Origin: Aquabacterium fontiphilum
Lineage (GTDB): Bacteria > Pseudomonadota > Gammaproteobacteria > Burkholderiales > Burkholderiaceae_C
Reading direction: 5' to 3'
DNA length: 64,000 nucleotides
Assembly: GCF_009909205.1 (NCBI RefSeq)
Contig: NZ_JAAAPN010000011.1
Span: 1-64,000 of the forward strand
The notes beneath the pieces are model-generated. The model had not been told where the DNA came from. It saw only the letters and a program-made list of their open reading frames with translations, and did no database searches. Below are positions 33,968 to 36,848 of the stretch, in pieces. A program made the translations under genes and the position numbers. Position 1 is the first letter of the stretch, and each line of letters opens with the position of its first letter.

Positions 33968-35086
33968 TCAGCGCGCGCGACGCGCCTGGATCGCCTTGGA
34001 CAGGATCTCGAGCACCTTCTCGGAGTCGTCCCAGCCGATGCAGGCGTCGGTGATGGACTGACCGTAAGCCAGCTTGGCCGGGTCGTCCTTGCCAGGCGTG
34101 AACTTCTGGGCACCGCCGCACAGGTGGCTTTCGACCATCACGCCGAACACCTTCTTCGAACCGCCGCTGACCTGAGCGGCGATGTCTTCGGCCACCACCA
34201 CCTGGCGCTCGTGCTGCTTGGAGCTGTTGGCGTGCGAGAAATCGACCATCAGCGAGGGGTGCAGCTTGGCGGCCTCCAGGTCCTTGCAAGCGGCCTCGAC
34301 ACTGGCCGCGTCGTAGTTCGGTGCCTTGCCGCCGCGCAGGATCACGTGGCAATCCGGGTTGCCGGCGGTCTCGACAATGGCGACCTGGCCATTCTTGTGG
34401 ATGGACAGGAAGTGGTGGGGGCGGGCCGCAGCCTGGATGGCGTCGGTGGCGATCTTGATGTTGCCGTCGGTGCCGTTCTTGAAGCCGATGGGCGCCGAGA
34501 TGCCCGAGGCCAGTTCGCGGTGGACCTGGCTTTCGGTCGTGCGCGCGCCGATGGCGCCCCAGCTGATCAGGTCACCGATGTACTGCGGCGAGACCACATC
34601 GAGGAACTCGCTGGCCGCCGGCATGCCCAGGCGGTTGATCTCGACCAACAACTGGCGCGCGATGCGCAGGCCTTCGTCGATCTTGAAGCTCTCGTCCAGA
34701 TACGGGTCGTTGATCAGGCCCTTCCAGCCCACGGTGGTACGGGGCTTCTCGAAGTACACGCGCATCACCACTTCCAGCGTGTCGGCGTAGCGCTCGCGCA
34801 GCGGCAACAGGCGCTTGGCGTACTCGATGGCGGCGGCCGGATCGTGGATCGAACACGGGCCGATGATGACCAGCATGCGGTCATCCTTGCCGGCGATGAT
34901 GCGGCGGATCGCCTTGCGCGTGCCGGCCACCAGCGTCTCGATGGCCGTGCCGCGGATCGGGAAGAAGCGGATCAGGTGCTCGGGCGGCGGCAGCGGCGTG
35001 ACGTTGCGGATGCGCTCGTCATCGGTCTGCGAGGTCTTGTCGGCGGGCGGAACCCAGCCGGCGGCGGCGCTGGATTTGGCGGTCAT
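33968..35086 (-). CDS. aroG: 3-deoxy-7-phosphoheptulonate synthase (DAHP synthase)
   Basis: Catalyses the first committed step of the shikimate pathway, condensing phosphoenolpyruvate and erythrose 4-phosphate. The 372-residue type I-alpha enzyme has LVIIGPCSIHDP, VVMRVYFEKPRTTVGWKGL, IGARTTESQVHRELASG and GFKNGTDGN, all conserved in the AroF/G/H group. Which aromatic amino acid inhibits it cannot be read confidently from sequence. RBS AGGAAG lies 8 bases before the ATG at 35086. A leader peptide and terminator lie just upstream, suggesting attenuation control. Confidence 0.94.
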   Translation of the reverse strand: MTAKSSAAAGWVPPADKTSQTDDERIRNVTPLPPPEHLIRFFPIRGTAIETLVAGTRKAIRRIIAGKDDRMLVIIGPCSIHDPAAAIEYAKRLLPLRERYADTLEVVMRVYFEKPRTTVGWKGLINDPYLDESFKIDEGLRIARQLLVEINRLGMPAASEFLDVVSPQYIGDLISWGAIGARTTESQVHRELASGISAPIGFKNGTDGNIKIATDAIQAAARPHHFLSIHKNGQVAIVETAGNPDCHVILRGGKAPNYDAASVEAACKDLEAAKLHPSLMVDFSHANSSKQHERQVVVAEDIAAQVSGGSKKVFGVMVESHLCGGAQKFTPGKDDPAKLAYGQSITDACIGWDDSEKVLEILSKAIQARRAR

Positions 35087-35119
35087 GGGGCGTCTTCCTG
35101 TTGCGGGTCGGGTCGGTCG

Positions 35120-35151
35120 AAAAAAAACCGCCGGAGGGCTCCGGCGGTTTT
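35120..35151 (-). terminator. Intrinsic terminator inside the DAHP synthase leader (attenuator)
   Basis: On the minus strand AAAACCGCCGGAG-CCC-TCCGGCGGTTTT forms a stem of about 12 base pairs followed by a run of T's (8 A's on the plus strand at 35120-35127). It lies between the leader reading frame and the DAHP synthase start, so it would abort transcription before the gene unless prevented. CCGGCG in the leader frame (35192-35197) is exactly complementary to CGCCGG in the upstream arm, giving a possible antiterminator. Confidence 0.85.
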
Positions 35152-35171
35152 CAGGATCTGGCGTGGTTCAC

Positions 35172-35249
35172 TCAAACGTTGACCACTCCTGCGCCGGTGT
35201 CGGGCTGGAGATGAAAGTGGCCAAAATAAAAGCGAACCGTCGTCTGCAT
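35172..35249 (-). CDS. Putative Phe/Tyr-sensing leader peptide of DAHP synthase
   Basis: A 25-codon frame beginning MQTTVRFYFGHFHLQ and ending at a TGA (35172-35174), 20 bases before the terminator stem. Four of codons 7-12 are aromatic (TTT, TAT, TTT, TTT), three for Phe and one for Tyr, end products of the pathway whose first enzyme follows. Ribosome stalling there would free the downstream CCGGCG to pair with the terminator arm. The Shine-Dalgarno is weak (AGCAG). I see no family match; the role is inferred from position, codon content and alternative pairing. Confidence 0.6.
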   Translation of the reverse strand: MQTTVRFYFGHFHLQPDTGAGVVNV

Positions 35250-35342
35250 GCTGCTAAATGTAGCACGGCCCCGACGGCCGCGGCGATACAGCGTGTCGAT
35301 TGGCGCCATAGGCCATACCCACCCATGCGCGCGCCCCGCCCG

Positions 35343-36848
<1,506 letters not shown>

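Follow-up and report, generated by a model that had tools for sequence, protein, structure and literature searches.

In the window considered here, that is, the whole stretch of 64,000 nucleotides of Aquabacterium fontiphilum DNA that was analysed, a DAHP synthase gene is preceded by a short reading frame rich in aromatic codons and by a terminator-like hairpin, which raises the question of whether entry into the shikimate pathway is controlled by the translation of this frame. The preliminary description of the locus had proposed ribosome-mediated attenuation of DAHP synthase; the proposal is supported, by computation alone, and the element is very probably a transcription attenuator of the trp/phe type that controls the synthase gene. 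The following parts of the locus are needed for the argument:

35257..35265, minus strand: extended -10-like promoter box TGCTACATT, whose end lies 7 nt upstream of the leader ATG.
35172..35249, minus strand: leader peptide frame MQTTVRFYFGHFHLQPDTGAGVVNV, 25 codons and TGA (ATG to TGA).
35214..35231, minus strand: putative control codons 7-12, Phe Tyr Phe Gly His Phe.
35183..35220, minus strand: region 1:2 alternative (pause-type) hairpin, CCACT at 35220-35216 with AGTGG at 35187-35183; partly conserved.
35182..35197, minus strand: region 2, the predicted 5' side of the antiterminator, CCGGCG CAGGA GTGGT.
35163..35167, minus strand: ACCAC, 3' side of the inner antiterminator helix.
35152..35156, minus strand: TCCTG, 3' side of the middle antiterminator helix.
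35140..35151, minus strand: region 3, first terminator arm AAAACCGCCGGA.
35120..35135, minus strand: region 4, second terminator arm and T run TCCGGCGG, the T run at 35127-35120.
33968..35086, minus strand: DAHP synthase (AroF/G/H type, PF00793, TIGR00034), ATG at 35086.

The 25-codon frame from which the proposal had started, with Phe-Tyr-Phe-Gly-His-Phe at codons 7-12, reads base for base as described (35249..35172, minus strand). Its TGA lies 20 nt before the stem, for which about 12 base pairs and a run of T had been reported and which consists of the 12-nt arms AAAACCGCCGGA (35151-35140) and TCCGGCGGTTTT (35135-35124) with eight T at 35127-35120; this intrinsic terminator spans 35151-35120, between the leader frame and the DAHP synthase gene. 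The exact complementarity of the CCGGCG in the frame (35197-35192) to CGCCGG in the first terminator arm (35146-35141), its antiterminator partner, was found again, and in the modelled structure the antiterminator is longer than first seen, CCGGCG-CAGGA-GTGGT being predicted to pair with ACCAC..TCCTG..CGCCGG. The upstream neighbour on the same strand is an aldehyde dehydrogenase gene that ends at 35343, with a CoA-acylating methylmalonate-semialdehyde dehydrogenase as its best NCBIfam match. The genome (G000; 37 contigs, with a completeness rating of 100%) yielded a single DAHP synthase; its sole other PF00793 protein is KDO-8-phosphate synthase, and a search for a type II DAHP synthase found none.

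Several comparisons with chance were made at the window's own locus. The RNA fold of the region has a z-score of -4.2, none of 200 shuffles being as stable. Among the 1574 small-ORF starts (15-45 aa) of the 64 kb window, a single frame combines at least three aromatic codons in six with a terminator-like site 30-90 nt further on, and this is the leader frame, counted twice in the scan through its two starts; the whole window holds six terminator-like sites. Synonymous recoding of the leader yields an equally good CCGGCG/CGCCGG match in about 78% of trials, and the modelled pairing of the window gives p = 0.13 against dinucleotide shuffles. Taken alone, the CCGGCG/CGCCGG match is unremarkable, and the weight of the case lies with the relatives. 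The pause hairpin of the preliminary description stood in part: CCACT and AGTGG are both present, but the helix is weakly conserved in the genus, the pairing, drawn to 7 pairs, being formed in 75.2% of the pair cells of 30 same-genus leaders, a level that 94 of 500 shuffles reach.

The comparison of sequences upstream of aroG homologues that had been recommended, with attention to Phe and Tyr codons, covered 81 loci, namely the window and its best 80 relatives in named genomes, further relatives existing beyond these. An aromatic leader followed by a terminator was found in 64 of the 81 loci, in 63 by script and in L030 by hand; all 64 leaders contain Phe and Tyr codons, and many of the relatives add Trp codons, which occur in 48 of the 64. 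No leader was found in the other 17 of the 81: three belong to Polynucleobacter and a fourth (L063) resembles them, two are copies from Cupriavidus (L028, L029), one (L027) sits at a contig end with 37 nt of upstream sequence, three come from MAGs that carry labels of other phyla (L043, L047, L049), and the last seven are from Thauera, Rhodocyclus, Rhodocyclaceae, Enterovibrio, Colwellia, Pantoea and Erwinia. In the Polynucleobacter loci and the similar one (L020, L021, L024, L063) neither leader nor terminator precedes the synthase gene, and in L020 and L063 the gene lies close behind an upstream gene. In the three MAG loci, labelled Planctomycetota, Verrucomicrobiia and Gemmataceae, the synthase is 66-70% identical to that of the window, and either transfer or a binning error would account for these genes.

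A covariance model, R1, was built from 63 of the 64 leader sequences and run on whole genomes. Across 150 genomes of the order, 119 of which carry the synthase gene, all 35 matches with E <= 1.1e-7 lie on the same strand and directly upstream of the gene, as judged by comparing coordinates by eye, and they span 13 families. Within the window's family the leader occurs in nearly all genomes sampled: a match at E <= 1e-5 is present in 245 of 250 and the gene in 247 of 250, two genomes (G535, G649) having the gene and no match and three (G516, G612, G652) having neither; the adjacency check, applied to the 30 best matches, placed every one of them next to the synthase gene. Within the window's genus the gene is present in 37 of 41 genomes, and leader and terminator are kept in all 30 loci read (the window and 29 of the other 36); the leader of L189, from the same genus, is degenerate. 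A search of 323 genomes of the class gave four strong matches outside the order, in two families and all upstream of the gene, Xanthomonas bonasiae (L075) being a named example of a leader outside the order. Seven matches of this search had E <= 5.8e-13; tblastn on L107, L108, L110, L111 and L112 found the synthase gene downstream, and the remaining two, in G000 and G048, were already among the matches of the order search. The synthase gene was absent from the 3 kb loci of six weaker matches of the class search. Nine of the weaker order matches (E > 1e-6) were examined, two of which are different aromatic leaders before other genes; six show no such leader, at sites that differ from the synthase matches, and the ninth, in G123, does lie before the synthase gene, with a terminator, but no aromatic frame was found there. 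Loss of the frame or of the alternative pairings in related species, which would speak against attenuation, was not seen, and the relatives keep both.

The position of the transcript start also bears on the model, and had been named as a point on which it could fail if the start lay downstream of 35172. In 26 of the 30 same-genus loci the -10-like box stops 7 nt short of the leader ATG, and in the other four 6 nt short of it; in 37 of the 64 wider loci the gap between such a box and the ATG is 6-9 nt. Bacterial transcription starts about 7 nt after the -10 box, so that this spacing predicts a start at, or just before, the ATG, and the leader mRNA is thus probably leaderless in the window's genus. 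In the Burkholderia-type loci and in many of the Oxalobacteraceae type a TATAAA/TATAGT-like box was seen by eye further upstream; a leaderless start is therefore not a trait of the whole leader family.

Counted from the first base of the last aromatic codon, the conserved GGCGG of region 2 starts 11-20 nt further on in 62 of the 64 loci; in the window, which like L001 and L004 has CCGGC(G) without a full GGCGG, the corresponding distance to CCGGCG is 19 nt. Both exceptions, L014 (6 nt) and L058 (1 nt), have a further aromatic codon near region 2. In the model the spacing fits approximately the front edge of a ribosome stopped at the last aromatic codon. The alternative pairings were compared with the front edge set at an assumed 12 nt, with the RNA made up to the terminator loop and with at least three expected pairs as the threshold for pairing of regions 2 and 3. 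This 2:3 pairing is kept in 62 of the 64 modelled loci, with a few two-sided changes, when the ribosome is placed at the last aromatic codon; moving the ribosome to the middle aromatic codon gives the pairing in 63 of 64, moving it to the first gives 56 of 64, and leaving it out gives 31 of 64. In the free RNA of the window the 1:2 hairpin is predicted, and in the stalled state CCGGCG-CAGGA-GTGGT/ACCAC..TCCTG..CGCCGG is favoured at -24.5 kcal/mol vs -19.8 kcal/mol for the terminator, so that pairings of a mutually exclusive kind are computed for this sequence. A ribosome at the stop codon is cut off from the 2:3 pairing by construction, and that state therefore provides no evidence; GGCGG starts at least 19 nt before the stop codon in 44 of the 64 loci, which is about where the rear of a ribosome standing there would end, or past it.

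How far these pairings exceed expectation depends on the control. In all 64 loci the modelled 2:3 pairing exceeds the mean of the shuffles, and in 32 of 64 it reaches p <= 0.05; under synonymous recoding, the stricter control, p <= 0.05 is reached in 6 of 64, the value for the window being 0.78. The pair flanking GGCGG is C-G in 31 loci, T-A in 15, T-G in five and A-T in two, hence formed in 53 of 64 vs 40.9 expected (0 of 2000 shuffles, which ignore relatedness), and mismatched in 11 of 64. On the protein tree the two-sided changes at this pair amount to few independent events, and region 3 is constrained by its pairing with region 4 too. Over the 64 loci the second antiterminator helix stands above base shuffles (0 of 300), but only by a small margin above permutations across loci (14 of 300). 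In the genus the outer helix is paired in 100% of cells, the middle helix in 96.3% and the inner in 76.6%, 91.5% overall, vs 22.9-49.6% when the strands are slid and 91.4% for letter shuffles; the absence of an excess over letter shuffles is due to the outer helices, which hardly vary. The seven core pairs of the terminator are formed in 30 of 30 same-genus loci.

In the relatives, codon choice and reading frame divide the leader into two parts. Codon 12 (TTT), the last aromatic codon of the window, is invariant in the 30 same-genus loci, codons 10, 11, 13 and 15-17 vary, and codons 19-20, which lie inside region 2, are invariant at all positions. TTT accounts for 186 of 278 Phe codons in the leaders vs 75 of 490 in the synthase genes of the same 64 loci, counted over their first 340 codons. 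Frame 2 is the reading frame of GGCGG in 33 loci (34 if one GGTGG is counted), frame 0 in 26 and frame 1 in one; since it is kept while its reading frame changes, it appears to be kept as RNA. From the sequences, then, the first half of the leader looks as if kept as codons and the second half as if kept as RNA.

These observations bear on the choice between attenuation and the other readings of the locus. Intergenic terminators are common, and with the aldehyde dehydrogenase gene lying on the same strand and ending at 35343 the hairpin might be its ordinary terminator and the short frame a product of chance; this is, however, hardly credible, since leader and terminator track the synthase gene while the upstream sequence varies (by eye, in a portion of the loci), the leader is found across the family, and a promoter-like box stands between the upstream gene and the leader. 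The combination of a chance frame and a neighbour's terminator was rejected because the leader follows the synthase gene in the relatives. The frame could also encode a functional small protein, aromatic and perhaps membrane-bound, with the terminator merely limiting read-through, as the conservation of the aromatic part at the protein level would allow. The same conserved bases of the second half are, however, read in different frames, leader length (18-30 aa) and stop position vary, and the leaders favour TTT in genomes that use it little in their synthase genes; a small protein is accordingly very unlikely, and it was rejected on the frame shifts over conserved bases and on the variable length.

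A third reading would keep the RNA switch and change its sensor: a metabolite or protein would bind the leader RNA, or Rho would act together with translation coupling, the aromatic codons being secondary. It draws on the 31 of 64 loci in which the antiterminator is the default without a ribosome, unlike the strict trp-type arrangement. Against it stand the identity of the conserved elements (aromatic codons, region 2, terminator), the spacing from codons to region 2, which fits the ribosome edge, and Rfam (release 15), which at the gathering score gave no family in the window or in 15 of the 80 loci; we consider such a sensor improbable. A known Rfam element was rejected for want of a match at that score, and the weak Rfam matches (E <= 10) include no amino acid leaders. 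In Burkholderia-type leaders (L052-L054, L061, L062, L066-L068 and others) region 2 has no predicted upstream pairing; the antiterminator is predicted to form there without a ribosome, and the untranslated state may thus read through.

For ribosome-mediated attenuation, the computation shows the anatomy, its conservation, the linkage to the gene, the geometry and the mutually exclusive pairings; the start site, the stalling, the termination and the amino acids sensed are what we infer, and the sequence of events would be as follows. RNA polymerase would initiate at the leader ATG or right beside it, and the resulting RNA, leaderless or nearly so, would take up a ribosome. When charged Phe-tRNA or Tyr-tRNA is scarce (or, in many relatives, charged Trp-tRNA), the ribosome would stop on the aromatic codons and leave region 2 free to pair with region 3, which would block the terminator and allow DAHP synthase to be transcribed. 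When the aromatic tRNAs are charged, the ribosome would cover region 2, regions 3 and 4 would pair, and transcription would stop before the gene.

Trp codons were considered as a mark of genomes with a single DAHP synthase, which found no support: in 27 of the 35 strong-match genomes, Trp occurs in the leader of 10 of 20 single-copy and of 4 of 7 multi-copy genomes. Trp is optional in the leaders across the order. Several leaders of the window's genus carry His at or beside aromatic positions, e.g. FWHFHLPPH and YHFWHFHIQH (window 35219-35211 and the leaders of L169-L197); the His codons could have drifted from Tyr codons (TAY to CAY) or could bring in His as a further signal.

The logic of control codons, antiterminator and terminator is that of pheL-pheA, pheST and trpL of enterobacteria, from which the leaders described here differ in the target gene and in the mixed aromatic codons of the window type. 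The Sinorhizobium trpL leader is started without a Shine-Dalgarno site, a likeness that is suggested here by the spacing of the -10-like box to the ATG. The same likeness extends to the ilvBNC operon of Corynebacterium glutamicum, for which the title of a reference in PMC4046766 describes an attenuator leader without a ribosome binding site, and attenuation is stated for the enterobacterial systems in PMC11802643. Before a DAHP synthase gene, aroF of C. glutamicum, the aroR leader (Phe-Tyr-Phe) has been reported to act by ribosome-mediated attenuation and to respond to Phe limitation, Tyr availability being described as without effect (PMC11802643, PMC4046766). The leaders of the window type are like aroR in placing a Phe/Tyr peptide before a DAHP synthase gene, a likeness by description and not by sequence alignment; unlike aroR, which is actinobacterial, they belong to Burkholderiales and to a few genomes of two other gammaproteobacterial families, and often contain Trp codons. 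They also resemble the uORFC-13-1 motif before aroF in Acholeplasma, in that an upstream frame with Phe codons and a terminator precede a DAHP synthase gene; the motif, a predicted frame with at least one Phe residue followed by a terminator, is described from Acholeplasma and environmental sequences (24 examples), and in the same source a similar mechanism is hypothesised for E. coli aroF (PMC8632094).

Attenuation is classical and has been reported for the Corynebacterium DAHP synthase, so the Burkholderiales leaders do not represent a new mechanism. What they contribute is a leader family in Burkholderiales and in two gammaproteobacterial families outside the order, with mixed aromatic codons and, probably, a partly leaderless start. 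Among the titles and abstract openings listed no DAHP synthase attenuator was found for Burkholderiales or Xanthomonadales, in line with the preliminary description, which knew of none for this gene in this group; an earlier report is possible. The synthase leader of Burkholderia cenocepacia may be among the 82 short 5' UTR transcripts reported for that species (PMC5688073).

In 100 sampled genomes of the window's family, the TrpR model (PF01371) had no match at cut-off, with weak matches in two, and the TyrR model (NF008085) none at cut-off, with near full-length relatives below it in three genomes and partial matches in all 100. TyrR and TrpR are the DNA-binding controls of the DAHP synthase genes in E. 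coli; their E. coli types are seemingly missing here, which fits a larger role for the leader, other regulators being possible. It is tentatively suggested, as a conjecture with slightly less than an even chance, that one near-leaderless leader polling Phe, Tyr and Trp is the main transcriptional control of shikimate entry in much of Burkholderiales, replacing TyrR and TrpR, and that Trp was trimmed while Phe and Tyr were kept in some lineages, including the window's species. The leaders suggest, in a form open to test, how a large group of bacteria may control the entry into aromatic amino acid synthesis without an E. coli-type TyrR or TrpR above cut-off, as far as the 100 family genomes sampled are concerned. 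They also provide an evolutionary series in which an attenuator changes its codons, its reading frame and its start, and might serve as an engineering target for aromatic production in harmless Cupriavidus-, Variovorax- or Hydrogenophaga-like strains.

Some further loci deserve mention. Aromatic-rich leaders with a terminator-like hairpin were seen at L091 (G114:C20:48229-48373:-; MVTFSVVYNVYFYWYRSSGGAKGC) and L092 (G128:C6:38247-38375:+; MNTQSFLACSYYWYRTSTGGARLE), before frames of about 200 residues that reach the cut-off of no Pfam family; in both G114 and G128 the matches to DAHP synthase lie elsewhere in the genome than these leaders. In G123 a leader-like terminator precedes the synthase gene (L106, G123:C31:42026-42101:+) and an aromatic frame was not found, possibly as the result of leader decay. 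A single leader stands before two tandem DAHP synthase genes at G143:C1:2562324-2564623 and at G021:C1:2636369-2638684.
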